Shown here: one piece after another, positions 1,295 to 30,482 of the stretch
Numbering within the stretch: the first letter of the stretch is position 1
How the letters are laid out: each line of letters opens with the position of its first letter
From: an uncultured Bacteroidia bacterium
Lineage (GTDB): Bacteria > Bacteroidota > Bacteroidia > Bacteroidales > UBA932
Direction: 5' to 3'
Length of the DNA: 44,071 bases
Assembly (NCBI GenBank): GCA_902774155.1
Contig: CACYHF010000017.1
Location: 1-44,071, forward strand
Translations under genes and position numbers: made by a program
The notes under the pieces: model-generated
What the model saw: the letters and a program-made list of their open reading frames with translations, nothing else
What the model was told of the DNA's origin: nothing
The model's database searches: none

Positions 1295-1400
1295 TGGCAG
1301 CTAAGTAATTGAATCACAGCGAGATATAGTATAGTTCTCGTTCAAAAAACGAACGAGAACATTCAGCAAAGCGCCTCAGTATCAGTGAGTTAGTTGCCAC
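1295..1400. repeat. 106-bp structured repeat, copy A
   Basis: Element bounded by TGGCAGCTAA at 1295-1304 and TTAGTTGCCA at 1390-1399, which pair with one G-T wobble. A perfect 10-bp hairpin (GTTCTCGTTC at 1334-1343, GAACGAGAAC at 1351-1360, 7-base A-rich loop) sits 39 bases from the left end. A second copy of exactly the same length and hairpin offset is at 30377-30482. The stems differ at two base pairs, and both differences are compensated. It lies between the broken glycosidase and tRNA-Ser. No coding potential. Could be a non-autonomous mobile repeat, a folded-DNA target or an RNA. Confidence 0.7.
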
Positions 1401-1435
1401 GCTATAGGCCGAATGTTCGAATCACGAACGAAACG

Positions 1436-1463
1436 CGAAAAGCGCCTGCGAAGCAGACGCTTT
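1436..1463 (-). terminator. Terminator-like hairpin after tRNA-Ser
   Basis: On the minus strand AAAGCGTCTG (1463-1454) and CAGGCGCTTT (1448-1439) form a 10-bp stem with one T-G pair around a CTTCG loop, a few bases beyond the tRNA 3' end. The 3' arm ends in a short T run. It is placed as a tRNA terminator. Confidence 0.5.
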
Positions 1464-1467
1464 GATG

Positions 1468-1554
1468 CGGTGAGTGAGGGATTCGAACCCCCGGTACGCT
1501 CACACGTACACCTGTTTTCGAGGCAGGCTCCTTCAACCACTCGGACAACTCACC
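1468..1554 (-). tRNA. serX: tRNA-Ser(CGA)
   Basis: An 87-base cloverleaf reads on the minus strand. Acceptor arms GGTGAGT and ACTCACC pair fully, followed by a G discriminator; CCA is not encoded. The anticodon loop CTCGAAA gives CGA, so it decodes UCG serine codons. A long variable arm and the T-arm GGTTCGAATCC mark a class II serine tRNA. The last base pair of the anticodon stem is C-A, otherwise the stem is intact. It has its own promoter at 1567-1597. The symbol is a placeholder; the isoacceptor call rests on the anticodon. Confidence 0.9.
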
Positions 1555-1566
1555 GTTTGGGGGTTG

Positions 1567-1597
1567 CAAAGATACGAATAATTTCGGACTTTGCAAC
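1567..1597 (-). promoter_or_regulatory. Bacteroidota promoter for tRNA-Ser
   Basis: On the minus strand GTTG (1597-1594), 19 bases, TATCTTTG (1574-1567). This matches the TTTG/TAnnTTTG signature with one mismatch in the distal box. The predicted start lies about 6 bases before the tRNA 5' end. Confidence 0.65.
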
Positions 1598-1605
1598 TTT
1601 ACGGT

Positions 1606-1791
1606 CTATTTGAACCACTCTACCAGGTGATCCTTGGCATAGAGGAAGTAAACGGCCACGCCAATCCAGCTGGTAAGGAGGACCAGGACGGCCGAGATGA
1701 GTTTTCCAACGGGAGAGATGGGTTTCTTGAAGATGTCAAGAACGGCCAGGACGGCCAGGACGATGCCAACAATGTAAATGAGTGTAGCCAT
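1606..1791 (-). CDS. Small two-helix membrane protein, PLDc_N-like
   Basis: A 61-residue protein with two hydrophobic helices (about residues 3-18 and 32-50) separated by a short basic loop DIFKKPISPVGK. It resembles the small proteins carrying the phospholipase-D nuclease N-terminal (PLDc_N) membrane domain, which occur widely in Bacteroidota with no known role. The ATG at 1791 has a near-perfect promoter upstream (1811-1841), which supports a real gene. It lies alone between tRNA-Ser and the dipeptide epimerase. Function unknown; likely an inner-membrane protein. Confidence 0.65.
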   Translation of the reverse strand: MATLIYIVGIVLAVLAVLDIFKKPISPVGKLISAVLVLLTSWIGVAVYFLYAKDHLVEWFK

Positions 1792-1810
1792 TGCAAATAG
1801 TATTATAATT

Positions 1811-1841
1811 CAAAATTATACAATTCTGCTTAATTAACAAA
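1811..1841 (-). promoter_or_regulatory. Bacteroidota promoter for the small membrane protein
   Basis: Minus strand: TTTG (1841-1838), exactly 19 bases, TAATTTTG (1818-1811). Both boxes match the consensus fully, and the start would fall about 15-20 bases upstream of the ATG at 1791. Confidence 0.75.
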
Positions 1842-1852
1842 AACAACGCTTA

Positions 1853-2989
1853 TTATTGCAGCGGAACAAGGCCGATTCCCGGCCGGTCAGGAAGCGTGAG
1901 GCGGCCGTCCACCACCTGCACGCCCTGGAATCGGTCGTTGGAGATGAGGAGGTTGCCGTCCAGGTCGGCGAAATCTACGGCGGGGGAGAGTTGGGCCGCG
2001 GCCGATACGGCACAGGAGGTCTCCGTCATGCAGCCCACCATCACCCTCATTCCCAGGGCGCGGGTGAGGGTAACCATCTTCCAGGCCTCCCGCATTCCGG
2101 TGCACTTCATCAGTTTGATGTTGATGCCGGAGAAGGCGCCCGCCAGGGCGGGGATGTCCCGCAGGCGCTGCACGCTTTCATCGGCGAAGATGGGGAGGGG
2201 ACTGCGCTCGGTGAGCCAGGCGGTGTCGTCCAGGCGATCCACAGGAAGGGGCTGTTCCACCATCACCACGCCATGTTCGGCCAGCCAGTGAATCTCGTCC
2301 AGGGCCTTGGAACGGTCTTTCCAGCCTTGGTTGGCATCTACGGCCAGCGGAACATCGGTGACGCTGCGGATGGTCTCAATCATCTCCACATCGCTGTCCA
2401 GGCCCACTTTCACCTTCAGGATATTGAAGCGCCCGGCCGCTTCCAGCGTTTTCTCCCGCACTACTTCCGGCGTATCGATGCCGATGGTATAAGTGGTGGA
2501 GGGCGCCTTGGCAGGGTCCAGGCCCCAGATACGGTACCAGGGTTGGCCGATGAGTTTGCCCACTAAGTCGTGCAGGGCGATGTCCACGGCCGCCTTGGCA
2601 GCGGAATCGCCGGGCGACAGGCTGTCTACATAGGCCAGTATGTCTTCCAGTTGGAAAGGATCCGGGAACTGCGAGAGGTCCACCCGCTCCAGAAACGCGG
2701 TGACGGAAGCCACCGACTGCCCCAGATAAGGCGGCATGGAGGCTTCTCCGTAGCCGATAATCCCCTCATATTCAATTTCCACCTGCACATCCGGCGTGGT
2801 TTTCCGGCTATAAGATGCTACGGTGAAGGTATGCGTCAGTTCCAGCTCATAGGGGAAAAAGCGCAGCTGCATGCGGCCGCTGCCGCATTTACCCACGTGG
2901 AAACGCTGCGGCCCGCCGGTGCAGCCCAGCAGGGCCGATCCCGCCAGGGCCAGCGAGGTGGTTTTCAGAAAGTCGCGTCTATTCTGCAT
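1853..2989 (-). CDS. L-Ala-D/L-Glu dipeptide epimerase, enolase superfamily, exported
   Basis: A 378-residue enolase-superfamily enzyme that interconverts L-Ala-D-Glu and L-Ala-L-Glu, a step in reuse of murein peptides. Visible active-site features in order: KVKVG (base on one face), VDANQGW, MVEQPLP and FADES (metal ligands), and NIKLMK (second Lys). The start at 2989 gives MQNRRDFLKTTSLALAGSAL then LGC, a twin-arginine-like signal merging into a lipobox, so the enzyme is probably an exported lipoprotein, which is unusual for this normally cytoplasmic activity. An ATG at 3109 would add 40 unlikely residues inside the next gene. It overlaps the NlpC/P60 gene by 11 bases, so the two form an operon in which the hydrolase releases the dipeptide and this enzyme isomerises it. 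Confidence 0.85.
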   Translation of the reverse strand: MQNRRDFLKTTSLALAGSALLGCTGGPQRFHVGKCGSGRMQLRFFPYELELTHTFTVASYSRKTTPDVQVEIEYEGIIGYGEASMPPYLGQSVASVTAFLERVDLSQFPDPFQLEDILAYVDSLSPGDSAAKAAVDIALHDLVGKLIGQPWYRIWGLDPAKAPSTTYTIGIDTPEVVREKTLEAAGRFNILKVKVGLDSDVEMIETIRSVTDVPLAVDANQGWKDRSKALDEIHWLAEHGVVMVEQPLPVDRLDDTAWLTERSPLPIFADESVQRLRDIPALAGAFSGINIKLMKCTGMREAWKMVTLTRALGMRVMVGCMTETSCAVSAAAQLSPAVDFADLDGNLLISNDRFQGVQVVDGRLTLPDRPGIGLVPLQ

Positions 2990-3929
2990 AGAAAGGATTG
3001 GTAAGGGTGGTGGTGAGGTCCGGATCCTGGTTAACGTAGGGGAGGACGCGTCCGCCGAAGAGATAGCGGCCGGTGTTGAAGGCATCGTACAAAGGGTCTT
3101 TAGCGTCAAAACTGCCGATTTTCACCAGTCCCAGCGAGTGGATGAAGCGGCTTTCCCCCAGATAGAACCCCACGTGCCCCACAGCGGGCTGTCCGTTCTC
3201 TTTCCATCGGCCGAAGAACACCAGGTCCCCAGGTTCCAGTTTCTCCCTGTCCGTAATGCGTTCTCCTTCCCGCGACTGCGGCCCGGCGTCCCGCGGGATG
3301 ATGATGTCGTGCATGAACAGCACTGTGCGCACGAAGCCGCTGCAGTCCATGCCCTTGGGCGACATGCCGGCCCAGATGTAAGGGAAGCCCAGCATGCTCT
3401 TGGCCGTTTTCAGAATGGCTTGGGGGCTATTGTCCAGCCTCTTGCGCCAGGCGCTTTCCTCCTGCGCGTCTTTCTTGGAGATGAACCCCACGCGACCGTC
3501 CGGGAAGCCCACTTTCCAGAAGCGTCCGCTGCTGCCCAGCTGCTTCAGCCGGTCTCCCGCCACGGCGTCCGAAAGCGTTTCGCTGCAGGCCGATGCCTTC
3601 TGGTAAATAAGGGTGTTCAATGCCGTCACCACTACCTTGGGGGCGGCGTTCCAGGCGTGGTATTCCTCCTGCGAGAGGAGGGTGACGGCCGCATAGTGCA
3701 CCCAGCCGGTGTAGCCGTCGGGCGTCTGGACCTGCGGCCAGGGATTGCCGTTGTCGCTGATGCCCAGGACGTGCACGGGCGTGCCCAGAAGGGCCTGCGA
3801 CACCATTTCCGCCGTGAAATTCGGGGTGCTCCGCATGTTGCAGACGGAGATATTGACCACACCCCATTGCTGGGAAAAGGCAGAGAGGCTCAGCAGAAGC
3901 CCGACAGCCACCAATAACAGTTTTTTCAT
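2979..3929 (-). CDS. NlpC/P60 murein endopeptidase with SH3-like domains (YkfC-like)
   Basis: A 316-residue secreted protein: signal peptide (residues 1-20, ending AFSQ), two bacterial SH3-like segments (about 25-90 and 98-155) and a C-terminal NlpC/P60 domain. The catalytic triad is visible as Cys196 in GMDCSGF, His252 in VGHVGFYL and His264 in FIHSLG. Homologues with this layout in Bacteroides cleave gamma-D-Glu-diamino-acid bonds in free murein tripeptides to yield L-Ala-D-Glu. The pairing with the dipeptide epimerase downstream supports the same role. The ATG at 3929 was chosen because the signal peptide begins there; longer versions run into rpiB on the other strand. A promoter box lies only 6 bases upstream, so the message may be leaderless. 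Confidence 0.88.
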   Translation of the reverse strand: MKKLLLVAVGLLLSLSAFSQQWGVVNISVCNMRSTPNFTAEMVSQALLGTPVHVLGISDNGNPWPQVQTPDGYTGWVHYAAVTLLSQEEYHAWNAAPKVVVTALNTLIYQKASACSETLSDAVAGDRLKQLGSSGRFWKVGFPDGRVGFISKKDAQEESAWRKRLDNSPQAILKTAKSMLGFPYIWAGMSPKGMDCSGFVRTVLFMHDIIIPRDAGPQSREGERITDREKLEPGDLVFFGRWKENGQPAVGHVGFYLGESRFIHSLGLVKIGSFDAKDPLYDAFNTGRYLFGGRVLPYVNQDPDLTTTLTNPFYAE

Positions 3930-3934
3930 AACTT

Positions 3935-3966
3935 CAAAGTTATTCAGAAATCGGCACTTTTGCAAA
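3935..3966 (-). promoter_or_regulatory. Promoter of the NlpC/P60-epimerase operon (left half of a bidirectional promoter)
   Basis: Minus strand: TTTG (3966-3963), 20 bases, TAACTTTG (3942-3935). Both boxes are perfect. The expected transcription start falls on or next to the A of the ATG at 3929. Its distal box abuts the distal box of the rpiB promoter, together forming TTTGCAAA. Confidence 0.7.
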
Positions 3967-3990
3967 TGCGGCGTTTTATTCCTAATATTG
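3959..3990 (+). promoter_or_regulatory. Promoter of rpiB-truB (right half of a bidirectional promoter)
   Basis: TTTG (3959-3962), 20 bases, TAATATTG (3983-3990; one mismatch to TAnnTTTG). The predicted start is about 15 bases before the rpiB ATG at 4014. The same two boxes and spacing recur upstream of the lipoprotein gene at 39016-39047. Confidence 0.6.
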
Positions 3991-4013
3991 CAAGAATTTT
4001 TGTACGAAATCCT

Positions 4014-4448
4014 ATGTTTAAGATTGGCATCTGCAACGACCACGCCGGCGTTGTGTATAAGTTCAAACTGATGAAAATGCTGCAAAAGCGCGGCGTCCAG
4101 GTGGTGAATTACGGGACGGATACGCCCCAGAGCGTAGATTATCCGGACTATGCCCATAGGCTGGCCAACGCCGTGGAAAGCGGCGAGGTGGATTTGGGCA
4201 TCGCCCTCTGCGGCACCGGCAATGGCATGGCCATCACCCTGAACAAGCATCAGGGCATCCGCGCCGGTCTGGCATGGGATACGCCCATCGGCATGCTGGT
4301 GGCCCAGCACAACAACGCCAATGTACTGGTGCTCCCTGCCCGCTTCATCAGCTATCCCAAAGCTTCCGCCATCGTCCGCAAATGGCTGGACACCCCCTTC
4401 GAGGGCGGCCGTCACCAGAAGCGCATCGACAAAATGCCCTGCCGATGA
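4014..4448 (+). CDS. rpiB: Ribose-5-phosphate isomerase B (RpiB/LacAB family)
   Basis: A 144-residue sugar-phosphate isomerase of the RpiB/LacA/LacB family, which interconverts ribose-5-phosphate and ribulose-5-phosphate. Family marks: ICNDHAG at the N-terminus, YGTDTPQSVDYPDYA, the catalytic-Cys loop ALCGTGNGMA, NKHQGIRAG and HNNANVLVLPARF. The ATG at 4014 was preferred to one at 3960 because MFKIGICNDHAG is where homologues begin and the promoter lies between the two. The stop overlaps the truB start (ATGA at 4445-4448), so the genes are translationally coupled. Producing ribose-5-phosphate would also feed the purine genes nearby, an inference only. Confidence 0.9.
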   Translation: MFKIGICNDHAGVVYKFKLMKMLQKRGVQVVNYGTDTPQSVDYPDYAHRLANAVESGEVDLGIALCGTGNGMAITLNKHQGIRAGLAWDTPIGMLVAQHNNANVLVLPARFISYPKASAIVRKWLDTPFEGGRHQKRIDKMPCR

Positions 4449-5326
4449 GTTTCCTTGTGCCCCGCTGCGGCCAGGTGCTCTCCCGCGACATCGCCGATTA
4501 TCCGGAAGGCATCGTCCTTCCGGTGGACAAGCCGTATCGCTGGACATCGGCCGATGTCATCCGTAAACTCAAGTACGCCGCTATCCGGCACTTCGGCAAG
4601 AAGAACCTGAAGGTGGGGCACGCTGGCACGTTGGATCCGCTGGCCACGGGGGTGCTGTTGGTATGCATCGGCAACGCCTGCAAACAGGCCCAACAGCTGC
4701 AGGACCACGACAAAGAATACATCGCGCGCATCCGCTTTGGCGCCACCACCCCGTCCTACGATTTGGAAAAGGAGGTGGACCGTCAATTCCCCTATAATCA
4801 TATAACGGCCGATACAGTCCGCGCCGCCCTCCCTGCCTTCCTGGGGGAACAGGAGCAGGTGGCGCCGCTATTCAGTGCCAAAAGCGTAGACGGCGTCCGC
4901 GCCTATGAACTGGCCCGGAAACTATATCGCAGCGGCCAGACCGAAGCCATCGATGCCGCCGCCCTGGAAACTCTCCAGCGGAACAAAATCCGCATCAGCG
5001 AGTTGGAACTGCTGGAGTTTGTTCCGGCAGGGGTCGGCAAAGCCGACGATTTCCGGGAGAATACCCCCTCCTCCGCGTCGTCCCGTATCCATGTGGCAGA
5101 TACATCGGCCCTGGGGCTGCCGGAGGCGGTGATCCGGATTGCCTGTTCCAAGGGTACTTACATCCGGGCCTTTGCACGGGATCTGGGTGAGGCCCTGGAC
5201 AGCGGAGCGCATCTGAGCGGCCTTATCCGCTCCCGCAGCGGGGATTTCTCCGTGGGCGATACCCTCTCTGTTCCCGAAGCCCTGGCCCTTTTCCCTGTTT
5301 CCCGGCCCGCTCCTTCCGGCGTCTAG
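4445..5326 (+). CDS. truB: tRNA pseudouridine(55) synthase TruB
   Basis: A 293-residue TruB. It isomerises U55 in the T-loop of tRNAs. The catalytic aspartate is in GHAGTLDPLATGVL; other family marks are the N-terminal PVDKPYRWTS, the DKEYIARIRFG strand, SAKSVDGVRAYELAR and the late CSKGTYIRAFARDLG. About 30 residues (VGKADDFRENTPSSASSRIH and onward, near 5035-5110) are inserted before the CSKGTYIR strand relative to compact homologues. The start is the ATG overlapping the rpiB stop. No recognisable terminator follows; the 180 bases up to rpsO hold the rpsO promoter and a perfect 12-bp palindrome. Confidence 0.92.
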   Translation: MSFLVPRCGQVLSRDIADYPEGIVLPVDKPYRWTSADVIRKLKYAAIRHFGKKNLKVGHAGTLDPLATGVLLVCIGNACKQAQQLQDHDKEYIARIRFGATTPSYDLEKEVDRQFPYNHITADTVRAALPAFLGEQEQVAPLFSAKSVDGVRAYELARKLYRSGQTEAIDAAALETLQRNKIRISELELLEFVPAGVGKADDFRENTPSSASSRIHVADTSALGLPEAVIRIACSKGTYIRAFARDLGEALDSGAHLSGLIRSRSGDFSVGDTLSVPEALALFPVSRPAPSGV

Positions 5327-5372
5327 GAGGTGCGGGATTCGGCCGATTTGTAACCGGTTCATAAAAGCCTGG

Positions 5373-5384
5373 CGCAAGCTTGCG
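5373..5384. repeat. 12-bp perfect palindrome after truB
   Basis: CGCAAGCTTGCG is a perfect palindrome in the truB-rpsO gap. There is no T-run beside it, so it is not a good intrinsic terminator. Role unknown. Confidence 0.35.
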
Positions 5385-5437
5385 TAGAGAAGAAGGGCTG
5401 GGATGCGGTGGGAACGGCGTGTATTGAACAGAAAAGA

Positions 5438-5469
5438 TTTGGTTAATCCAAATAAAATGCGTACATTTG
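5438..5469 (+). promoter_or_regulatory. Promoter of rpsO
   Basis: TTTG (5438-5441), 20 bases, TACATTTG (5462-5469), a full match to the Bacteroidota signature. The predicted start gives a leader of about 30 bases before the ATG at 5507. Confidence 0.75.
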
Positions 5470-5506
5470 CAGGCTAAAATTTTAACAATTAAAAACTCAT
5501 TGCATC

Positions 5507-5758
5507 ATGGCAGAATATTTACAGCCTGAGAAAAAGCAAGAGATTTTCGCGAAGTACGGGAAGTCCAATAAGGACACCGGCTCTCCTGACCGTATCGCTC
5601 ACCTTACGGAGCATGTGAAGAAGAACAAGAAAGACGTTGCAACGCGTCGTAGCCTTCTTCGCCTTGTGAGTAAGCGTCGTCAGCTTCTGAACTACCTTCA
5701 GAAGATCGATATCGAGAGATACAGGGCTATCGTGAAGGAGCTGGGTCTCCGCCGATAA
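5507..5758 (+). CDS. rpsO: 30S ribosomal protein S15, internally shortened
   Basis: An 83-residue S15, which binds the central domain of 16S rRNA early in small-subunit assembly. The N-terminus, [22 protein letters not shown] and the C-terminal [12 protein letters not shown] all fit. Most S15 proteins are 88-89 residues and read TGS-x-E-x-Q-I/V-A-L-x-T-x-R-I after the first turn; here it reads [10 protein letters not shown], so about eight residues (24 bases) of helix 1, including the conserved Gln that contacts rRNA, are missing without a frameshift. A strong promoter precedes it and a terminator follows, then pnp: the common rpsO-pnp order. Identity is certain; whether the gap is real is not. 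Confidence 0.93.
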
Positions 5759-5779
5759 TCCACAGGATAGGAAACAAAC

Positions 5780-5816
5780 GGGGGTTGGGATGCAAGGACA
5801 TCCTGCCCCCTTTTTT
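5780..5816 (+). terminator. Intrinsic terminator between rpsO and pnp
   Basis: GGGGG (5780-5784) and GGATG (5788-5792) pair with CATCC (5799-5803) and CCCCC (5806-5810) around a six-base loop, followed directly by six Ts. It probably ends most rpsO transcripts, leaving readthrough into pnp. Confidence 0.75.
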
Positions 5817-5871
5817 CGAAAAAAAACAGTCCCACAGGGGGACAGACGAAATAGACGTAATAATAGAAGAA

Positions 5872-6894
5872 ATGAACATTATCAAAAAGACCATCGAACT
5901 GCCCGACGGACGGGTAATCGAGATCGAAACCGGGAAATTGGCCAAACAGGCTGCCGGTTCTGCCGTTGTGAAAATGGGTGGCACCATGCTGTTGGCCACC
6001 GTCACCTGCGCCACGGAGGTGAAAGAGGGTACGGACTTTATGCCCCTCACCGTGGATTATCGTGAAAAATACTATGCTGCCGGCCGTTTCCCCGGCGGTT
6101 TCCTCAAGCGCGAGAGCCGTCCCAGTGACTACGAAGTGCTCATCGCCCGCCTGGTGGACCGTCCCATCCGTCCCCTGTGGCCCAGTGACTTCCACCTGGA
6201 AGTGTTTGTGAACGTGATGCTCATCAGCGCCGAAAAAGACATCCAGCCGGATGCCCTGGCCGGTCTGGCTGCATCGGCCGCCCTGGCCAGCAGCGACCTC
6301 CCCTTCGGCGGTCCTGTGAGCGAGGTTCGCGTAGCCCGCATCGACGGTCAGTTCGTGATCAACCCCGGCTTCGAGGACAACAAGCGGGCCGATCTGGACC
6401 TGATGGTGGCCGCTACCGAGGAGAACATCATGATGGTGGAAGGCGAAATGAACGAGGTATCCGAGCATGACATGCTGGAGGCCATCAAGTTCGCCCACGA
6501 AGAAATCAAGAAGCATTGCCGCGTGCAGAAGGAACTCATGCATGAGCTGGGCACCGATGCCCAGAAGCGTGACTACCCGCACGACGAAGAGGACGAGGCC
6601 CTGAAGACCGCCGTACACGAGGCTTGCTATAACAAGTGCTATGAGCTGGCCAAGAGCGCCAAGCCCAAGCACGAGCGCGAAGACGGCTTCAACGCCATCC
6701 GCGACGAATTCAAGGCCCAGTTCAGCGAGGAAGACCTGGAGCTGTGCGCAACCTCGTCCTGGACGAGGGCAAGCGCCTGGACGGCCGTGCCACCAACGAG
6801 GTACGCCCCATCTGGTGCGAGGTGGATTACCTGCCCTGCGCCCACGGATCGGCCATCTTCACCCGCGGTGAAACCCAGTCCCTGGCCTCTGTGA
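5872..6894 (+). CDS. pnp: Polynucleotide phosphorylase, N-terminal half (first RNase PH and helical domain), frameshifted
   Basis: N-terminal part of PNPase, the phosphorolytic 3'-5' exoribonuclease of mRNA decay. The frame gives a normal first RNase PH domain ([28 protein letters not shown]) and the helical domain up to [13 protein letters not shown], about residue 291; the next 50 residues are out-of-frame translation. The second half continues in another frame from 6744. Comparison with the family shows that about 17-18 residues (roughly 52 bases) of the linker helix between FSEEDLE and the second PH domain are missing, which creates the shift. The ATG at 5872 is the family start; an ATG-free extension upstream runs through the terminator. 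No clear separate promoter was found. Confidence 0.85.
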
Positions 6895-8171: not shown

Positions 8172-8186
8172 ATCCTGAAATGCAGT

Positions 8187-8219
8187 AAGCGCCGACCTGA
8201 AAAGGCCGGCGCTTATTTT
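8187..8219 (+). terminator. Intrinsic terminator after pnp
   Basis: AAGCGCCGACCT (8187-8198) pairs with AGGCCGGCGCTT (8203-8214) with one A-C mismatch around GAAA, followed by ATTTTAT. It also sits right behind the stop of the converging doxX-like gene and may serve both. Confidence 0.8.
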
Positions 8220-9393: not shown

Positions 9394-10070
9394 GGCAGAT
9401 AGGGATCTATACTGGCACGCACCCGCTGGAAGATAGCATCCGGCGGCAACATGTTGCCGTTTTCATCGGCACAGTCGATGCGCAGGAAACGCTTGTCCAG
9501 CTGGGTCTGGGCCAGGTAAAGGGAACGGACGTCCTGCTGGAAAGCGATGGAAGCTTCGTGGATGTCCTGTGCGCCACCCAGGTAATTGCGGTCTGCGCCG
9601 GAACGTGCCTGGGAAAGGCTCTGTTCCACAAAGCCGATAGGTACGTCCAGGAAGAGATTCAAGTCCGGAACCGGCAGTTGAAAATCCCCGTATTCCGTGT
9701 TGAAAATCCAATCCCTGAGGCGTTTACGCGCCACCATATCCTTGAGCTTGGCACACTGGTATGCAATATTGGAATAGACGTAGCGGTCCAGCAGAACGGT
9801 TTTCCCTTCTTCCAGCGCTTCCCGGATAAGGGGGGCTGCACCGTGGCGGTCCTCTGCGAACAGAAGGGCCACCAGTTGCGGATGCACGGCGTCATTGGCG
9901 CCGAAATCTCCCCGCAGGAAGCGGCTGATGAGATCCCCGTACACAGGGGCGTCGTAGCGCGGGAAGTGGATGTACTCCAACTCCCCGCAGCGCTCCGTCA
10001 GGTATTCCTTCAGTTTCCGGACCTGCGTGGATTTCCCCGCGCCGTCCAGTCCTTCCAATACAATCAGCAT
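9390..10070 (-). CDS. tmk: Thymidylate kinase
   Basis: A 226-residue dTMP kinase, making dTDP from dTMP and ATP. P-loop GLDGAGKST at residues 8-16, the DRY motif in LDRYVYSNIAYQ, and a lid region with RSGADRNYLGG. The ATG at 10070 shares its A with the TAA of infB, and its own stop overlaps the doxX-like start, so it sits inside a tightly coupled operon. Length is slightly above the usual 205-215 residues. A longer upstream extension would lie within infB and is rejected. Confidence 0.93.
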   Translation of the reverse strand: MLIVLEGLDGAGKSTQVRKLKEYLTERCGELEYIHFPRYDAPVYGDLISRFLRGDFGANDAVHPQLVALLFAEDRHGAAPLIREALEEGKTVLLDRYVYSNIAYQCAKLKDMVARKRLRDWIFNTEYGDFQLPVPDLNLFLDVPIGFVEQSLSQARSGADRNYLGGAQDIHEASIAFQQDVRSLYLAQTQLDKRFLRIDCADENGNMLPPDAIFQRVRASIDPYLP

Positions 10071-22066: not shown

Positions 22067-25000
22067 CGGTCTTTTCTGAAATAATGAACGGCATTTTCAA
22101 ACAGGGGCTGACGGCAGTTGCCGCCGATATTCTTGTAGAGCTGGTCCTCGTAGCGCTCCGAATGTCCCATCTTGCCCAGGATGTGTCCGTCCGGGCTCAG
22201 GATACCTTCGATGTCGTAGTAGGACCCGTTTGGATTGTCTATATAGCGAAATGCCACCTGGCCGCGGGCAAAGAGCGCTTCGGCCTGCTTCGCACTGACC
22301 ACGAACTTGCCCTCGCCGTGACTGAAGGCGACGGAATGCCGCTCCCCTACCGACAGGCCCGAGAGCCAGGGGCTGTTCACGGAACAGACCTCCGTTCGGG
22401 CGATGAGGGAGATGTGGCGGTTAATATCGTTGCGGAAGAGCGTGGGAGAATCGGGGGTGACGCTGCCCACCTTGCCATCCGGCAGGAGGCCGCTCTTGAC
22501 CAGGGCCTGGAAGCCGTTGCAAATGCCCAGGATAAGGCCTCCGCGCCGCTGCAGCCGTCCGATGGCATCGCTCACCCGGGCGTTGCAGATGACACTGGCG
22601 ATGAATTTGCCGCTTCCGTCCGGTTCGTCTCCGGAGGAAAAGCCACCGCAAAAGGCCAGGATATGACAACGGTCGATGCGCGCCGAAAGCTCGTCAATGG
22701 AACGAAGTACGTCTTCACCCTTCAGGTTGCGGAATACAAAAGGCTGCACCTGGGCCCCGGCGCAGCGGAAGGCCTTGGCGGTGTCGTAATCGCAGTTGGT
22801 GCCCGGGAAGACCGGCAGGCACACCACAGGGTGCTCCACCGGCGTGCCGGGATAAACCAGATGGGCTGCGTCAAAGGGAACGGGCTTCACCGCCGGTACG
22901 GGGGCCTCGAAGGCGGGTTTCACCCGCGGCGGATACAACTTGAAATAGCGGCCCTCGTATGCCTGCTCCAGCATTTCCGGCGAAAGGGTACTGCCGTTGA
23001 TGCGGATACCGTCCTCCGTCACCCGGCCCAGGAGCTGAGCCCCTTCCAGCCGGTCCGTCGTTTCCAACACCACCGAGCCGTAACCCAGGGAGAAAAGCTC
23101 CTCTTCCGCCAGGCTCACATCCACGCCAAGTCCGTTGCCCATGGCCATTTTCACCAGGGCCTCGGCCACGCCGCCGAAGCTCAGCGACCAGGCCGACACC
23201 ACCTTCCCGGCGGCTATTTCCGCACGCAGGCGGTTCCAGTGGGCCTTGAGCTGTTCAGTATCGGGCATATAATCGGCCTTCGGCGTATGCTTCAGCAGAT
23301 AAATGCAGTTTCCGGGGTGCTTGAATTCCGGCGAAATCACCTGGCGGGCGTCCACCGTGGTGATGCCGAAAGCTACCAGGGTGGGCGGCACATGGATGTG
23401 CTCGAAAGTACCGCTCATGGAGTCCTTGCCGCCGATGGAAGGAAGGCCCAGGGCTTCCTGCATCTTGAGGGTACCCAGCAGCGCGGCCAGGGGCTTTCCC
23501 CAGCTGTGGGGATCGGAGGTCATGCGCTCGAAGTATTCCTGGTAGGAGAAGCGCATCCGGGACCAGTCGGCCCCGCAGCAGGCCAGCTTGGTGCAGGCCT
23601 CCACCACCGCATAGGCGGCGCTGTGATAGGGGCTCCAAAGGGCCAGGTCGGGGTTATAGCCGAAGGCCATTACGCTGGCGGTATGGGTAAAGCCGTCCAC
23701 CGGCAGCTTTTGCACAGACACCTGTGTTTCTGTCGTTTGCCGCTCGCCACCATAGGGCATGAGCACCGTGGAGCGGCCGATGGTGGAGTCGAACATTTCC
23801 ACCAGGCCTTTTTGCGAGGCCACGTTGGGCGACGACATCACCGCACAGACCTTCTCTTCCAGCGTGGAGCCGGCAGGCTTGCGTTCAAAGGGATTTTTCT
23901 CCTCCACGGGGCCGATGGCGGCCTTGGCGTAATGCGGGGCGCCGGCGCTGTCGATGAATTCGCGCGAAAGGTCGCAGACCTTCTTTCCGTGGAAGAACAT
24001 ACGCATACGGCCGCTGCCGGTGACATCGGCCACGTGCGTCACCTCTATATTGTCGTTGGCGCAGAGGGCTTCAAAGGCTGCGCGGGAATGGGCTTCCACC
24101 ACCACGGCCATGCGCTCCTGAGACTCGCTGATGGCCAGTTCCGTGGCGTTGAGACCGGCGTATTTCACGGGCACGCGGTCCAGCCAGATATCCAGGCCGG
24201 GAGCCAGCTCGCCGATGGCCACGCTCACGCCGCCGGCGCCGAAGTCGTTGGATTTCTTGACCAGACGCGTCACTTCCGGATGCCGGAACAGGCGCTGCAG
24301 CTGGCGTTCCTGGGGCGGATTGCCCTTCTGGACCTCGCTGCCGCAGGTCTCCAGGGAGGCCTCGGTATGCTGTTTGGACGAGCCCGTGGCCCCGCCGATG
24401 CCGTCCCGGCCGGTGCGACCTCCCAGCAGCAGGATCACGTCCCCGGGGGCCGGGGATTCGCGGCGTACGGCCGATGCCTTCACGGCACCCACCACGGCGC
24501 CGATTTCCATCCGCTTGGCCGTATAGCCCTCCGAATAGATCTCGCGTACGTGCGTGGTGGCCAGGCCGATCTGGTTACCGTAGCTGGAATAGCCTTCGGC
24601 CGCCTTGTGGGAAATCATCCGCTGGGGCAGTTTGCCCGGGATGGTATCGGCCACAGAGGCCATGATGTCACCGGCGCCGGTCACGCGCATGGCCTGGTAA
24701 ACATAGGCACGGCCCGACAGCGGGTCGCGGATGGCGCCACCCAGGCAGGTGGCCGCGCCGCCGAAGGGTTCGATTTCCGTGGGATGGTTGTGGGTTTCGT
24801 TCTTGAACTGCAGGAGCCACTGCTCGTCCTTTCCGTCCACGTCCACTGTGACAAATATGCTGCAGGCGTTGTTCTCCTCGCTCTGTTCCAGGTCTTCCAG
24901 CAGTCCCCTGGCCTTCAGGTAGCGGGCGCCCAGGGTGGCCAGTTCCATCAGGCACAGTGCTTTGGCCTCGCGGCCCAGGTCTTTGCGCATACGCGCTGCC

Positions 25001-25746
25001 AGGCGAAGGGAGGATTCAATATCGGCTTTGATAAACGATTCATCCACTGTCACTTCCTCCAGTGTGGAGGTAAATGTGGTGTGGCGGCAGTGATCGCTCC
25101 AATAGGTATCCAGGATGCGAAGTTCGGTTTCGCTGGGGTCACGGCCTTCGGCACGGAAGTAGCGTACTACCTCACGCAGGTCGTCGCTGTTCATGGCCAG
25201 GCCGTGCGAGCGGCAGAAGGCGGCGTACGCCCCCTCTTCCATCTCCGTGAATCCGGAAAGGTCTTCCAAGGGTTTCACATCGGCCTTTTCGGAAAGCGAA
25301 AGCACGCCCATATCCTTGCGGCGGCATTCCACGGGGTTGATGAAATAGGCGGCGATGCGCTGGATCACCGGCTCCGGAACGTCCTCGTCAAAAAGCAGCA
25401 GACGGGCGCTCTTGATGCTCACCTGCGCGTCCGGATCAATCAAGTGCACACAGTCCAGGGCCGATGAAGCACGCTGGTCGAACTGTCCGGGAAGATATTC
25501 CACGGCCAGGTACTTGCTGCCGGCGGGGTTGGTGTCCGAGACAAGGTCAGTGGCCTTCTCGCCGAAGACGCTGTAGCGACACTGTTCCAGCAGGGCATCG
25601 GAGAATCCGAACAGGTCGTAGACATTCACCAGCCGTAGGCTGCGCAGGTTCAGCGACAGGTTCCCGTTGAAATCCCTGAGGAGGCTCTGCGCCTCCACAC
25701 GGAAGGCTTCCCGCTTCTCCACAAACAATCTCTTTGCTCTTTCCAT
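22063..25746 (-). CDS. purL: Phosphoribosylformylglycinamidine synthase, large single-chain form
   Basis: A 1227-residue FGAM synthase that converts FGAR and glutamine to FGAM. The synthase part has SDHCRHTTF, FKNETHNHPTEIEPFGGAATCLGG, GNQIGLATT and IGGKDSMSG; the C-terminal glutaminase has the nucleophile in GICNGFQAL (about residue 1075) and the His-Glu pair in GHSERYE. The beginning (LFVEKREAFRVEA) and internal layout resemble the clostridial single-chain enzyme more than the enterobacterial one; this is from memory of the families. Second gene of the operon, 57 bases after purE with a 9-bp hairpin in the gap. Confidence 0.95.
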   Translation of the reverse strand: MERAKRLFVEKREAFRVEAQSLLRDFNGNLSLNLRSLRLVNVYDLFGFSDALLEQCRYSVFGEKATDLVSDTNPAGSKYLAVEYLPGQFDQRASSALDCVHLIDPDAQVSIKSARLLLFDEDVPEPVIQRIAAYFINPVECRRKDMGVLSLSEKADVKPLEDLSGFTEMEEGAYAAFCRSHGLAMNSDDLREVVRYFRAEGRDPSETELRILDTYWSDHCRHTTFTSTLEEVTVDESFIKADIESSLRLAARMRKDLGREAKALCLMELATLGARYLKARGLLEDLEQSEENNACSIFVTVDVDGKDEQWLLQFKNETHNHPTEIEPFGGAATCLGGAIRDPLSGRAYVYQAMRVTGAGDIMASVADTIPGKLPQRMISHKAAEGYSSYGNQIGLATTHVREIYSEGYTAKRMEIGAVVGAVKASAVRRESPAPGDVILLLGGRTGRDGIGGATGSSKQHTEASLETCGSEVQKGNPPQERQLQRLFRHPEVTRLVKKSNDFGAGGVSVAIGELAPGLDIWLDRVPVKYAGLNATELAISESQERMAVVVEAHSRAAFEALCANDNIEVTHVADVTGSGRMRMFFHGKKVCDLSREFIDSAGAPHYAKAAIGPVEEKNPFERKPAGSTLEEKVCAVMSSPNVASQKGLVEMFDSTIGRSTVLMPYGGERQTTETQVSVQKLPVDGFTHTASVMAFGYNPDLALWSPYHSAAYAVVEACTKLACCGADWSRMRFSYQEYFERMTSDPHSWGKPLAALLGTLKMQEALGLPSIGGKDSMSGTFEHIHVPPTLVAFGITTVDARQVISPEFKHPGNCIYLLKHTPKADYMPDTEQLKAHWNRLRAEIAAGKVVSAWSLSFGGVAEALVKMAMGNGLGVDVSLAEEELFSLGYGSVVLETTDRLEGAQLLGRVTEDGIRINGSTLSPEMLEQAYEGRYFKLYPPRVKPAFEAPVPAVKPVPFDAAHLVYPGTPVEHPVVCLPVFPGTNCDYDTAKAFRCAGAQVQPFVFRNLKGEDVLRSIDELSARIDRCHILAFCGGFSSGDEPDGSGKFIASVICNARVSDAIGRLQRRGGLILGICNGFQALVKSGLLPDGKVGSVTPDSPTLFRNDINRHISLIARTEVCSVNSPWLSGLSVGERHSVAFSHGEGKFVVSAKQAEALFARGQVAFRYIDNPNGSYYDIEGILSPDGHILGKMGHSERYEDQLYKNIGGNCRQPLFENAVHYFRKDR

Positions 25747-25769
25747 GGACTACTTTTTATTAAAATAAT

Positions 25770-25799
25770 CTGCCCACCGACGCAGGGCGGGGTGGGCAG
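25770..25799 (-). promoter_or_regulatory. Stem-loop between purE and purL
   Basis: CTGCCCACC (25770-25778) and GGTGGGCAG (25791-25799) form a perfect 9-bp stem with a 12-base loop. On the minus strand it is followed by ATTATTTTAATAAAAA, a weak T-tract. It could reduce transcription into purL or protect the purE message. Confidence 0.45.
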
Positions 25800-25803
25800 C
25801 AGG

Positions 25804-26271
25804 CTATATCACAGTATTCAGTACCTTGTCACTCTGTTCTTTACGGAACTGCTGGAGCTTGATCGCCAGCGATTTATCGTTCAGGGCCAGGATGGAGACA
25901 GCATAAAGGGCCGCATTCTTGGCGCCATCGATGGCCATGGTGGCCACGGGGATGCCGGAGGGCATTTGGACGATGGACAAGAGGGAATCCAGACCATTGA
26001 GCGCCTTGGACTTCACCGGGATGCCAATCACGGGCAGGGTGGTGAGGGCAGCGATAACCCCGGGAAGATGGGCGGCCCCGCCGGCACCGGCGATCACAAT
26101 CTGGCAGCCCTTCTCCGGCAGGGAGGCCACATAATCGGCCAGAGGACCGGGATTGCGGTGCGCGCTGAGCACGCGTTTCTCGTAAGGAATGCCGAAATCG
26201 TCCAGCGTAGCGCAACAGGGGGACATCACGTCCCAGTCACTGGCGCTACCCATAATGATCGCTACTTTCAT
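25804..26271 (-). CDS. purE: N5-CAIR mutase PurE (class I)
   Basis: A 155-residue class I PurE that moves the carboxyl of N5-CAIR to C4. Marks: IIMGSASDWDVM, the SAHRNPGPLADYV segment (family SAHRTP), GAGGAAHLPG and GIPVATMAI. First gene of the operon, with its own promoter at 26301-26332. No purK is present in the window, although class I PurE usually depends on PurK; it may lie elsewhere. Confidence 0.94.
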   Translation of the reverse strand: MKVAIIMGSASDWDVMSPCCATLDDFGIPYEKRVLSAHRNPGPLADYVASLPEKGCQIVIAGAGGAAHLPGVIAALTTLPVIGIPVKSKALNGLDSLLSIVQMPSGIPVATMAIDGAKNAALYAVSILALNDKSLAIKLQQFRKEQSDKVLNTVI

Positions 26272-26300
26272 AGAAAAGAATCCACTGCAAAAATGAGTTG

Positions 26301-26332
26301 CAAATTTACAATTATGGCATGAGACTTACAAC
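26301..26332 (-). promoter_or_regulatory. Promoter of the purE operon
   Basis: Minus strand: GTTG (26332-26329), 20 bases, TAAATTTG (26308-26301). One mismatch in the distal box. Predicted leader is about 20 bases; no purine riboswitch fits into this space. Confidence 0.65.
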
Positions 26333-26389
26333 ATCGCCGACCGTTTTTTTGTCAACACCGGTCTGTTCATAAAGATTCTCCGGGAAACA

Positions 26390-26421
26390 CTTGCACATAT
26401 TGGAATACGGCCGTACCTTTG
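26390..26421 (+). promoter_or_regulatory. Promoter of the second purC and purB
   Basis: CTTG (26390-26393), 20 bases, TACCTTTG (26414-26421). The predicted start is about 13 bases before the ATG at 26440. It diverges from the purE promoter across an intergenic region of 168 bp. Confidence 0.6.
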
Positions 26422-26439
26422 TATGATACATTATTTCCC

Positions 26440-27381
26440 ATGAACGCCGTTGTCAAAACCCAATTCCAGCTTCCCGGTCAAGAGTCCAAGTACACGGGAA
26501 AAGTACGCGATGTGTATACCCTCAGCAGTGGTTATCTGGTAATGGTGGCCACCGACCGTATTTCCGCCTTCGATGTGGTACTCCCGGAAGGCATTCCCTG
26601 CAAAGGGCAGGTCCTGAATCAGCTGGCCGCCCAGTTCCTGGATCTCACGGCCGATATCCTTCCCAACTGGAAGGTGGCGGTGCCAGACCCTATGGCCACC
26701 ATCGGCTGGCGCTGCGAGCCGTACAAGGTGGAAATGGTGGTACGCGGCTACCTGGCCGGCCATGCCTGGCGCGAGTACAAGGCCGGTAAACGCAGCCTCT
26801 GCGGCGTTCCCATCCCCGACGGCCTGCGCGAGAACGAGAAACTCCCCCAGCCCATCATCACCCCCACCACCAAGGCGGCCGAAGGGCATGACGAGGATAT
26901 CTCCCGGGAAGAAATCATCGCCCGGGGCATCGTCCCGGCCGATGAATACGAGCAATTGGAGCGCTACACCCTGGCCCTGTTCCAGCGCGGAACGGAAATC
27001 GCCGCCCGCAAAGGCCTCATCCTGGTGGACACCAAGTATGAGTTCGGCAAGAAGGACGGGCAGATCATGCTGATGGACGAAATCCACACCCCCGATTCGT
27101 CGCGTTACTTCATTGCCGAGGGCTATGCGGAGCGCCTGGAGCGCGGTGAACACCCGCGCCAGCTGTCCAAGGAGTTCGTGCGCGAATGGCTTATGGCCAA
27201 CGGTTTCCAGGGACAGGAAGACCAGCAGGTGCCTGAGATGACTCCCGCTGTGGTCCGCGGTATCACGGACCGCTATATCGAACTATACGAAAAATTGAGC
27301 GACACGCCCTTCCAAAAGGCGGAGTGCGAAGACATCCCCGCCCGTATTGAAGCCAATATCCTGCACTTCCTTTCAAAGTAA
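26440..27381 (+). CDS. purC: SAICAR synthase, long type
   Basis: A 313-residue PurC of the long form typical of Bacteroidota and resembling the fungal enzyme. Marks: [80 protein letters not shown] and [11 protein letters not shown]. All active-site blocks look normal. The ATG at 26440 is used; a TTG seven codons earlier overlaps the promoter. It forms a two-gene operon with purB (six bases apart). It duplicates the activity of the short PurC in the diverging operon. Confidence 0.93.
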
Positions 27382-27387
27382 ATACCT

Positions 27388-28683
27388 ATGATAGAGCGCT
27401 ATTCACGCAAAATAATGCGGGACGTATGGACCGAGGAAAACAAGTTCGGCGCCTACCTGGAAGTGGAAATCCTCTCCTGTGAAGCCTGGAGCAAGCTGGG
27501 CGTGATTCCCCCCGAAGATGTAGACAAGATCCGGGCATCGGCCCGCTTTGACGTGGCCCGTATCGGCGAAATTGAGCAGCAGACCCGCCACGACGTGGTG
27601 GCCTTCACCCGTGCCGTGAGCGAAAGCCTGGGTCCGGAGCGCAAATGGGTGCACTACGGTCTCACCTCTACTGATGTGGTAGACACCGCCAACGGTTATC
27701 TGCTCAAGCAGGCCAACTCCATCCTTCTGCAGGACCTGGAGGAATTTCTGGAGGTGCTGCGCCGCCGCGCCCTGGAGTTCAAGGAAACCCCCTGCATCGG
27801 CCGCACGCACGGCATCCACGCCGACATTACCAGCTTCGGCCTCAAATGGGCACTCTGGTATGAGGAGATGCAGCGGAACCTCGCCCGCTTCAAGGCGGCC
27901 GCCGCCGGTGTCGAGGCCGGCAAGATGAGCGGCGCCGTGGGCAATTTTGCCAACATCCCTCCTTTCATTCAGGATTACGTGTGCGGGAAACTGGGCATCG
28001 AATCGGCCCGCATTTCCACGCAGGTATTGCAGCGGGACCGGCACGCCTGTTACGTGGGAACCCTGGCGCTCATCGCTTCCACCTTGGAGCAGATGGCCTT
28101 CGAAGTGCGCAACCTCCAGCGCACCGAGGTCCGTGAGGCCGAAGAAGCCTTCCGAAAGGGGCAGAAGGGCTCCAGCGCCATGCCGCACAAGCGCAACCCC
28201 ATCTCCAGCGAGAACATTTGCGGCTGCGCGCGCGTGATGCGCGGATATATGGCCACGGCCTATGAGAACGTAGCCCTGTGGCACGAGCGGGACATCTCCC
28301 ATTCCAGCACTGAGCGCATCGTGCTGCCGGATGCCACCGAACTGCTGGACTATATGCTCCAGCGCTTCAAGGGCATCCTGGAAAACCTGGTGGTGTACCC
28401 GGAGAATATGCTGGCCAACATCTGGCGCACCCGTGGGGTCATCTTTGCCCAACGCGTAATGAACGCCCTCATTGCCAAAGGTTTATCCCGCGAGCAGGCT
28501 TACGATACGGTGCAGCCCATCGCCATGGAGGCCTGGACGCAGAACAAGGACTACAAGATCTTGCTGGAGGCGTCTCCCGCCGTCATGGGACTCCTGTCCA
28601 ACGCAGAGCTGGACAGCTGCTTCACGCTGGACTACTATTTCAAGAACGTGGACGAGATTTTCTCCCGCGTAGGAATTGCCTAA
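27388..28683 (+). CDS. purB: Adenylosuccinate lyase
   Basis: A 431-residue fumarase-superfamily lyase acting twice in purine synthesis: SAICAR to AICAR and adenylosuccinate to AMP. Marks: [13 protein letters not shown], the catalytic His region [15 protein letters not shown], and the signature [14 protein letters not shown] with [10 protein letters not shown]. The type (MIERYS start, 431 residues) is that common in Firmicutes. It is co-transcribed with the long purC, and its stop overlaps the stop of the converging purA by two bases. Confidence 0.95.
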
Positions 28684-29951
28684 CGGATTACGGTGGCGTC
28701 GCGGTCCGGTCCCACGGATACGATTTTGACCTTAACACCCGTTTCCGCTTCGATAAAGCGGATGTATGCCTTGAAGGCCTCGGGGAAATCCTCGTAGCGG
28801 CGCAGGTTGCTCAGCGGGGTTTTCCAGCCGGGGAATTCTTTGTACACGGGCGTCACGTGGGCACCGCCGTCGTAGGGGAAACTCTCCGTCAGATGATTTC
28901 CGTCTTTGTAGGCCACGGCCACCTTGATGGTGTCGAAATTGTCCATCACGTCGGATTTCATCATAATGAGGTCTGTGACGCCGTTCATCATCACGGTGTA
29001 TTTGAGGGCCACCATATCCAGCCAGCCGGTGCGGCGGGGCCGTCCGGTGGTGGCGCCGTATTCGTGGCCGATGGCACGCAGCTTCTCTCCGTCGGCGTCA
29101 AAGAGCTCCGTGGGGAAAGGGCCGCTGCCCACACGGGTGCAATAGGCCTTGAAGATGCCGTACACGCGGCCTACGCGGGAAGGGGCTACGCCCAGTCCGG
29201 TGCAGACGCCGGCCGATAAGGTATTGGACGAGGTGACAAAGGGATAGGTACCGAAATCGATATCCAGCAGCGAACCCTGCGCACCTTCGGCCAGGATGGG
29301 GGCATGGGCTTTTAAGGCCTCGTTGATATAGACTTCGCTGTCAATGAAAGGGAAACGCTTGAGCTGCTCCACAGCCTGGAACCACTGTTGCTCATACTCC
29401 GTGATGTCGTACCGGAAGTCATATTGTGCCAAAAGACCGAAATGCTTCTGTTTGAGCGCATTGTACTTGTCCTTAAAATCCGGGGAAAGGATGTCCCCCA
29501 CGCGCAGGCCATTTCGGCCCGTCTTGTCCATATAGGTGGGGCCGATGCCCTTGAGCGTGGAACCAATCTTGGACTTTCCCTTGGCGGCCTCACTGGCGGC
29601 GTCCAGCATCCGGTGCGTGGGAAGGATCAGATGGGCGCGTTTGGAAATCTTCAGTTTATCGCCGATGGAGCCCACCCGTTGCTCGATGGCGTGGACTTCC
29701 TCCAGCAGGATTACGGGGTCGATGACCACGCCGTTGCCAATCACATTCACCGTTCCTTCGCGGAAAATGCCGGAAGGAACCGTATGGAGGACGAAGCTGT
29801 CTCCGTCAAAGACCAGCGAATGGCCGGCGTTGGGGCCACCCTGGAAACGGGCCACCACTTTGTAGGACGGTGTTAATACGTCCACTACCTTTCCTTTTCC
29901 CTCATCTCCCCATTGGAGACCCAGTACCACATCCAATTTGTTCTGTTCCAT
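28680..29951 (-). CDS. purA: Adenylosuccinate synthetase
   Basis: A 423-residue enzyme joining aspartate to IMP with GTP, the committed step to AMP. Marks: [67 protein letters not shown] and [10 protein letters not shown]. The single-gene unit has a promoter at 29974-30005 and a short leader. It meets purB tail to tail with interlocking stop codons. Confidence 0.95.
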
Positions 29952-29973
29952 GTATTACTGTTCGTTAATCATA

Positions 29974-30005
29974 CAAATGTAGCGATTTTACGGCACTTCT
30001 GCAAC
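29974..30005 (-). promoter_or_regulatory. Promoter of purA
   Basis: Minus strand: GTTG (30005-30002), 20 bases, TACATTTG (29981-29974). Predicted start about 16 bases before the ATG. Confidence 0.65.
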
Positions 30006-30031
30006 AGGGCTGCCGGGTTTGGCCGGGTGTG

Positions 30032-30081
30032 CCGCCTCGGCACAAAAAGGGCATTCTACGGCGTTCTGCTTGCCGAGGCGG
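30032..30081. repeat. 11-bp inverted repeat upstream of purA
   Basis: CCGCCTCGGCA (30032-30042) and TGCCGAGGCGG (30071-30081) are perfect inverted copies 28 bases apart, within the 563-bp non-coding stretch between purA and the WbqC-like gene. No T-run follows on either side. Confidence 0.5.
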
Positions 30082-30100
30082 AGAGGTAACAATGGCCGAT

Positions 30101-30192
30101 GACGGTCTTTGTCGCAAAAAAGGCCGAAAATGCGCGCTCGGCCGTCAAGCTTGACGGTCTTTGTCACGAAAATGGCCGAAAACGCGACAAAG
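30101..30192. repeat. Interlocked direct and inverted repeats in the purA-wbqC gap
   Basis: Two 34-base direct copies start GACGGTCTTTGTC at 30101 and 30153 and agree at 30 of 34 positions. Between them lies a perfect 16-bp palindrome (CCGTCAAGCTTGACGG, 30142-30157). CTTTGTCGC (30107-30115) and GCGACAAAG (30184-30192) are inverted copies centred on that same palindrome. The whole is therefore a two-fold structure around 30149/30150. Only two direct copies and no spacers, so not a CRISPR array. Confidence 0.55.
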
Positions 30193-30260
30193 AACGCAAA
30201 AGGAGGGAGGAGCAAGCGAAGGCGTGGATGTAAACGCTTGAAGCACAGCATAATAGATAA

Positions 30261-30291
30261 TTGACTCCCCACCAAAATAGAGGGGAGTCAA
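30261..30291. terminator. 10-bp hairpin in the purA-wbqC gap
   Basis: TTGACTCCCC (30261-30270) and GGGGAGTCAA (30282-30291) pair perfectly across an 11-base A-rich loop. There is no strong T-tract on either side, so it may be a structural end of the neighbouring repeats instead of a true terminator. Nearest gene upstream on the minus strand is wbqC-like, 220 bases away. Confidence 0.4.
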
Positions 30292-30376
30292 ATCGTTATT
30301 CGTTTGATAATCTTGATGTTACGTCCACGGGACCACCTTACAGATCCCCTTCGTCATCTGGCAGCCCCATTGGCCG

Positions 30377-30482
30377 TGGCAGCTAACAGATTGAATATCA
30401 GTATACTCCGCTATTTTCCTCGTTCAAAAATCGAACGAGGAATAGCATTCAAGAAGTTGGTAATCAGTAAGATAGTTGTCAC
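30377..30482. repeat. 106-bp structured repeat, copy B
   Basis: Starts TGGCAGCTAA (30377-30386) and ends in TAGTTGTCAC, with ends that pair through G-T wobbles. The hairpin TTCCTCGTTC (30416-30425) with GAACGAGGAA (30433-30442) and a 7-base loop lies 39 bases from the left end, exactly as in copy A at 1295-1400. TTGAAT on the left and ATTCAA on the right pair as a further helix. It lies 32 bases beyond the stop of the WbqC-like gene. Confidence 0.7.

Follow-up and report, generated by a model that had tools for sequence, protein, structure and literature searches.

What are the two 106-bp copies that share a covarying hairpin in this DNA, and what spreads them or keeps them in place? We use "window" for the whole stretch analysed, 44,071 nt long, which is contig C17 of genome G000, hereafter the own genome. 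The copies are very probably REPIN-like, non-autonomous single-stranded DNA elements of a Y1/HUH transposase (TnpA) from a distinct TnpA_Y1 group; we infer both transposition and termination.

Three elements in the window

The copies proposed by the sequence-only reading do lie at 1295-1400 and 30377-30482. Both are of 106 bp and of subfamily A, and neither is assigned a strand. Copy 1 (match 1293-1404 with the covariance model R2, E 1.7e-14) has its outer arms at 1295-1304 and 1390-1399, the two occurrences of a motif called S at 1302-1326 (left) and 1368-1392 (right), and a core stem at 1334-1343 and 1351-1360 around a loop at 1344-1350. In copy 2 (R2 match 30375-30486, E 1.9e-13) the outer arms are at 30377-30386 and 30472-30481, and the core stem at 30416-30425 and 30433-30442 encloses a loop at 30426-30432. 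The 7-nt loops and the two compensated differences between the stems (GTTCTCGTTC/GAACGAGAAC in copy 1, TTCCTCGTTC/GAACGAGGAA in copy 2) were confirmed. Folded on the + strand the two copies have z-scores of -6.5 and -7.3, and none of 200 shuffles folds as well.

The number of copies had been underestimated: there are three elements in the window. The third, of subfamily D, occupies 30223-30332, about 40 bp before copy 2, again with no strand assigned (R2: E 8e-11 on the + strand and 1.9e-10 on the - strand). Its core is GACTCCCC..GGGGAGTC, its arms are CGTGGATGTAA / TTACGTCCACG and its fold energy is -37.5 kcal/mol.

In an Rfam scan of the window the gathering score was reached by tRNA only. 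A tRNA-Ser (CGA) gene, given here as context, lies outside the element at 1467-1554 on the - strand; its 3' end points at copy 1, about 66 bp away.

Many copies within one genus

When the own genome (2.43 Mb) was searched with copy 1 by BLAST, 28 rows came back, i.e. 26 distinct places once L024 and L028, the reverse reads of L010 and L011, were dropped. All but one of these places (25/26) align almost gap-free, anchored on the A-rich loop; L017, whose right end is lost, was left out of the alignment of A copies. The covariance model R1 returned 98 rows at E<=1 in the own genome, which merge to at least 52 distinct places (with 150 of the 473 first-look candidates scored, manual merging of the rows and a check of the count). 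Matches appear on both strands because the element is palindromic. The weaker R1 places are other subfamilies with the same layout. The covariance search thus yielded many further copies, in the own genome and in relatives, with their stems kept.

Under strict filters R1 matches 20 of 41 genomes (the own genome plus 40 relatives), all of the same genus, and none of 16 genomes from other families. With the broader model R2 (E<=0.001, 25 candidates scored per genome), 111 of the 151 genomes sampled from the genus have a match. Across the order (E<=1e-4, 13 candidates per genome) R2 matches two genomes out of 295, one being the own genome and the other a marginal case from its family. A search of GTDB contigs for the S..S pattern found 25 stretches, labelled Bacteroidales, Bacteroidia, Bacteroides, Alistipes or Saprospiraceae, and one plain "Bacterium". 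Judged by eye, the hairpin layout is present in 12 or 13 of these stretches; those come from Bacteroidales or Bacteroidia MAGs, several of them from rumen.

A constant layout with subfamily-specific helices

Each element reads outer arm, S, central hairpin, S, outer arm. S is a 25-bp palindromic motif, TAAn4CTGAnnnTCAGn4TTA, present twice per element and common to the subfamilies. With up to 3 mismatches allowed, S occurs at 248 sites in the own genome, vs 34 for the pattern read backwards. The outer arms and the core are wholly different between subfamilies and between species, with pairing retained. Subfamily A has the core AGTCCTCGTTC and the arm GTGRCAGCTAA; subfamily B has the core AAAATCGATT plus an inner stem that is variable yet paired, and the arm CGTGGAGATAAG. 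Subfamilies C and D are represented by AAAGTTCTCTGC and TGACTCCCC respectively. A form E, found at five loci, runs hairpin, S, hairpin, S. Each element can fold, on either strand, as a single long, imperfect hairpin.

Across subfamilies both helices covary: the score is 0.596 vs 0.164 for shuffled and at most 0.121 for slid alignments. On 20 fresh loci it was 0.637, vs 0.167 shuffled and at most 0.125 slid. Most elements entered both alignments on both strands and the alignments were fitted to models, which makes their cells interdependent; even so, the margin is large. Orthologous copies show compensated stem changes as well, e.g. TCCTCGTTC in the own genome vs TTCTCGTTC in G019, a genome of another species.

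Within subfamily A the core keeps compensated changes and the outer arms vary almost independently. Among 25 A copies the arm positions are unpaired in 9 copies at columns 6/106, in 8 at 9/103 and in 9 at 10/102. The shares of paired cells within A are 86.2% and 93.7%, and covariation is 0.129 vs 0.107 shuffled, 10 of 500 shuffles being as high. The proposal that the pairing of the ends is kept through wobbles is therefore not general within the own genome, where A-type arms vary nearly independently; covariation of the outer arms does stand between subfamilies and species.

The S spacers behave otherwise. No excess pairing was found for either fold when a cloverleaf was compared with the long hairpin, and in G019 the left and right S spacers pair less than shuffled ones (0.280 vs 0.376). 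The outer arms and the central stem carry subfamily identity, and the S spacers are not selected to pair. GTAG (GT[AG]G) is absent from the consensus of the 25 A copies and, by eye, is not conserved in the other subfamilies.

A Y1 transposase lies between matching elements

A Pfam Y1_Tnp search in relatives gave one match between two A elements on contig C21. The match on contig C41 sits between two B elements, and that of G019 between two elements of the type proper to G019. Subfamilies A and B of the own genome have one TnpA each, between two matching elements; no bracketed TnpA was found there for C, D and E. Eighteen loci of the bracketed kind were collected, together with four Y1 genes of a different type; 17 full-length proteins were aligned, L244 being excluded for its broken frame.

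TnpA is a Y1/HUH protein of about 306 aa (294-336 aa among the 17). H58, H60 and Y118 are invariant in all 17, and Pfam Y1_Tnp is matched by every one of them; no other Pfam family recurs. At E<=1 none of the 17 matched the helix-turn-helix (HTH) families Bac_DnaA_C, HTH_23 and HTH_28, a search that a diverged HTH could escape. The six proteins scanned with NCBIfam NF047646 (RAYT, cut-off 80 bits) all stayed below the cut-off, at 25-46 bits and over the first ~140 residues only. TnpA is a distant relative of the REP-associated tyrosine transposases. An LF or VF pair precedes [FY] in the 17-protein alignment, at what we take to be the place of the RAYT W-Q pair.

In the discovery set an element is found within ~750 bp, edge to edge, on both sides of 16 of the 17 full-length TnpA genes, and on at least one side of all 17 (L243 is without a 3' element). 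A stricter cut on element centres gives 15/17, the difference being L193. A fresh set of 20 loci, hand-picked away from contig ends and used for no model, has elements on both sides in 17 cases and on at least one side in all 20. Two of its species, G004 and G005, had contributed other elements to R2; the both-sides call of L317 is a weak match (E 0.04), and the second element of L310 is 1.07 kb off. The four Y1 genes of the other type have no element within 760 bp at E<=0.5, two of these loci ending near the gene; in one of the four, L252, a weak match (E 0.22) lies just beyond 760 bp.

The two elements of a locus also resemble each other. Core similarity within loci is 0.86 (15 pairs) vs 0.32 between loci (481 pairs) in the discovery set, and 0.90 (16 pairs) vs 0.41 (649 pairs) in the fresh set. 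Core similarity shows no clear correlation with TnpA identity (rho 0.125, p 0.074), which suggests a faster turnover of the stems than of the protein.

Elements and TnpA occur together in the genus. TnpA (E<=1e-20) is found in 89 of 151 genomes, 88 of which have elements (the exception is G330), while 39 of the 40 element-free genomes are without TnpA (Fisher p 9e-19). Elements without a TnpA match at this threshold occur in 23 of the 111 element-bearing genomes. One of these 23, G324, which is 97% complete, gave no Y1 match at E<=0.01. G291 carries arrays of S and yet no Y1 match; therefore S may not be TnpA's own site and may be read by something else.

Order-wide, the TnpA profile matched 39 of 295 genomes at E<=1e-10. 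The match is full-length in the own genome only; among the matches listed, the 38 others end by position 159 of 308. A tblastn search for TnpA relatives in viral contigs found none, and no TnpA was found at E 1e-4 in the 25 S..S stretches from GTDB.

The elements abut gene ends

Gene calls came from a home-made finder; distances above 1000 bp probably reflect missed genes. The position counts leave out a partial copy (C10:16438), the type-D copy of the window, the five type-E elements and, for G019, L217 (a duplicate of L213). The 51 A-D copies counted in the own genome lie in 26 convergent, 20 codirectional, 1 divergent and 4 unresolved intervals; the 32 copies of G019 in 17, 12, 2 and 1 respectively. 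Measured in the own genome, 62 of the 72 distances from an element to a gene 3' end do not exceed 25 bp (median 4), vs 6 of 22 to a 5' end (median 145). For G019 the corresponding counts are 37 of 46 and 0 of 16. In 17 of the 72 own cases and 6 of the 46 of G019, the stop codon of the gene is contained in the element's first part.

At gene junctions conserved between the two species, the element has a partner in the other species in 5 of 7 tests from the own genome and 4 of 6 from G019, vs 4 of 62 and 0 of 58 for conserved junctions that are element-free. Copies thus mostly stay put where gene order is conserved, and any movement is therefore rare. Sites filled in one of the two species only do exist, with flanks too diverged to fix the ends of the element.

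Halves of elements are shared between copies. Among 56 A-type copies from two genomes, 34 half-element pairs are identical at 14 or more of 18 drifting positions vs ~1.2 after column shuffling; part of this excess is genome-specific preference, because shuffling mixed both genomes. Three G019 pairs are near-identical over both halves, and the members of two such pairs are inverted relative to each other, at distances of 3 and 6 kb; other pairs share one half only. This sharing fits copying in trans together with mosaic exchange at the core, by an exchange mechanism that we infer.

Transposase elements, host structures or recombination sites

The position of the elements is what a host-owned structure would predict, i.e. 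a bidirectional intrinsic terminator or a 3'-UTR hairpin, to which the link with TnpA would be secondary. In addition to the abutment of 3' ends and the retention of elements at orthologous sites in both species, some cores have by eye the order A-tract, GC stem, T-tract. But the T run that follows the stem is only short in subfamily A, and host ownership leaves unexplained the matched copies around TnpA, its co-occurrence with the elements, the subfamily-specific arms and the two S motifs. We therefore consider it unlikely that the elements are primarily host structures. The outer arms, which resemble terminal inverted repeats (TIRs) and vary independently within subfamily A, would suit MITEs of an ordinary DDE transposase; but what recurs between paired elements, in searches directed at Y1 genes, is a gene of the Y1/HUH type, and an enzyme that reads duplex DNA has no need of arms and core that covary between subfamilies, which makes a MITE origin very improbable.

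The sequence-only reading had also listed a recombination site among its candidates. Sites of attC or Xer type that shuffle the genes between them would account for several gene-order breaks between the own genome and G019 that fall at elements, and for copies that share only one half with another copy. Junctions with an element are broken in 28 of 41 cases vs 93 of 213 for element-free junctions, and codirectional ones in 16 of 17 tests, a count taken without a gap-matched control. However, convergent element junctions (12 of 24 broken) fare no worse than element-free convergent and divergent ones (30 of 52), and the copies are dispersed, not clustered as in attC arrays or integron cassettes. 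The synteny test thus lends no support to recombination sites, a reading that we find hardly credible.

Of the candidates of that reading, it is the non-autonomous repeat moved by a REP- or IS200-type transposase that the data favour: at almost every locus inspected, matched copies flank a Y1/HUH gene. We conclude that TnpA probably moves the elements, and the best reading of their position is that they are tolerated or used as gene-end structures. TnpA would bind the folded element on exposed single strands; the conserved tyrosine would cut, and the element would be copied or moved in trans. Insertions may survive mainly beside stop codons, where the central stem would serve as the gene-end hairpin or replace it. 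A role as structured RNA or terminator would be a possible added function.

Comparison with known systems

REPINs, as presented in the part of Bertels and Rainey (2011, PMC3116915) available to us, are inverted doublets whose spacer keeps its length and its pairing through compensatory changes, each type lying beside its own RAYT. The elements described here are likewise extragenic inverted doublets of a conserved unit, with a spacer of kept length and compensated pairing. Each type is tied to its own transposase, save the own types C, D and E, for which none was found, and the gene beside the repeats encodes a Y1/HUH transposase with HxH and a catalytic Tyr. Unlike REPINs as that part describes them, the elements are of about 106 bp, their unit is S and not a GTAG-tagged REP, arms and core are subfamily-specific, and the protein is about twice as long. 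According to the sections seen of Quentin et al. (2018, PMC6006769), it is the W-Q pair of RAYTs that contacts the GTAG guide.

The same sections describe TnpA_Y1 subclass 2.6 as a Bacteroidetes group with a median of 179 aa and no GT[AG]G tag, whose genes have "atypical secondary structures" at their flanks and further copies of these elsewhere in the genome. Host phylum, structured flanks with dispersed copies and the missing tag are common to both systems. TnpA is set apart, by the published table rather than by profile or sequence comparison, in its 294-336 aa and in that the NH[LIV]H, WQ and YIH[QN]NP of subclass 2.6 are not the rule here.

In TIRtrons, or TIRYT, a RAYT-like gene lies between long inverted repeats, and some of these repeats make up families of moderate abundance, as far as the consulted portion of Di Nocera et al. 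(2013, PMC3733652) tells; Quentin et al. equate them with subclass 2.1 (PMC6006769, in the sections seen), of median 238 aa, with a long C-terminal extension and an HTH tail. Our loci also have a RAYT-like gene between inverted repeats. They differ from TIRYT, on what those portions give, in that the flank motif GGGG[AT][CG]A[CG] is absent from the S and arm consensus, and from subclass 2.1 in length and perhaps in the tail, as no HTH family was matched (Pfam, E<=1; a diverged HTH is possible). TnpA shares the HUH core of IS200/IS605 TnpA (e.g. ISDra2, PDB 2xo6; profile E ~7e-4, positions 37-79 of 308). That enzyme is much shorter and moves its own IS, whereas here non-autonomous copies far outnumber the gene.

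The BrickBuilt MITE of Porphyromonas was considered and rejected, since it has other TIRs and a link to IS5 in the extract of PMC4596501 at our disposal. In the open-access literature on bacterial palindromic repeats and RAYTs, surveyed partly by title, we recognised no publication describing this repeat family. "Undescribed", as the sequence-only reading had it, thus applies to the family; the kind, REP/REPIN plus RAYT, has been described. We file the system as a variant of the REPIN/RAYT kind, not placed in a named subclass.

Significance of the family

With this family the RAYT/REPIN concept reaches a large genus of uncultured Bacteroidales, where the transposase is longer and the repeat is bigger and coded differently. 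The family also accounts for repeats otherwise annotated as terminators or orphan RNAs. Transposases and elements come in matched pairs with wholly different stems, and it can therefore be asked what portion of a hairpin is recognised by a Y1 enzyme; this natural series of pairs also opens the question of why such repeat populations persist. We put forward tentatively, as a possibility rather than an expectation, that the system is a distinct HUH class, in which the whole imperfect hairpin of ~106 nt would be read by its fold and by S instead of a GTAG guide, the ~306-aa TnpA would have a new C-terminal domain, and each TnpA would be matched specifically to the arm and stem sequences of its own elements. 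If this is true, one genus would hold scores of distinct transposase-hairpin pairs, whose elements have been recruited as gene-end structures.

Paired and arrayed S motifs

The GTDB stretches (found by the S..S pattern over GTDB contigs) include five loci whose record titles read Alistipes sp. (L107, L115, L118, L129 and L131). They carry paired S motifs, i.e. two copies of the 25-bp palindrome, lying 70-71 bp apart end to end and with no obvious hairpin between them. The copy of L127 (7235-7310) is a near-perfect palindrome of 76 bp; it differs from the other GTDB copies, in which the spacers of the S motifs are unpaired.

For G291, a genome from another family of the order, S motifs are found in arrays with a spacing of about 50-100 bp (loci L162-L166 and L290), the exact S pattern matching this genome 67 times in forward and 72 times in reverse orientation. 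The 106-bp hairpin layout is absent from these arrays, and a Y1_Tnp search of G291 gave zero matches.

Variants of the element and a further Y1-like gene

Five loci of the window's own genome (L172, L174, L177, L178 and L180) carry form E, composed of the hairpin AGCTTGYGCCAAAGCCTGGCGCAAGCT, S, a CCCG-type hairpin and S; no transposase belonging to form E was found for these loci. The same genome contains a third Y1-like gene (in L289, contig C14, 31000-37000), which matches the profile of 17 TnpA proteins over the N-terminal part (E 5e-13) and around which bracketing elements are absent. One lone S-like palindrome lies in L289, past an apparent tRNA-Leu.

In the G019 assembly, L213 (contig C19) and L217 (contig C34) are one locus present twice, probably because the bin is mixed or the assembly redundant. 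In L304 (1265-1502) and L314 (2428-2808) the element is repeated in tandem next to TnpA at intervals of about 126-137 bp, an arrangement that resembles BIME arrays.
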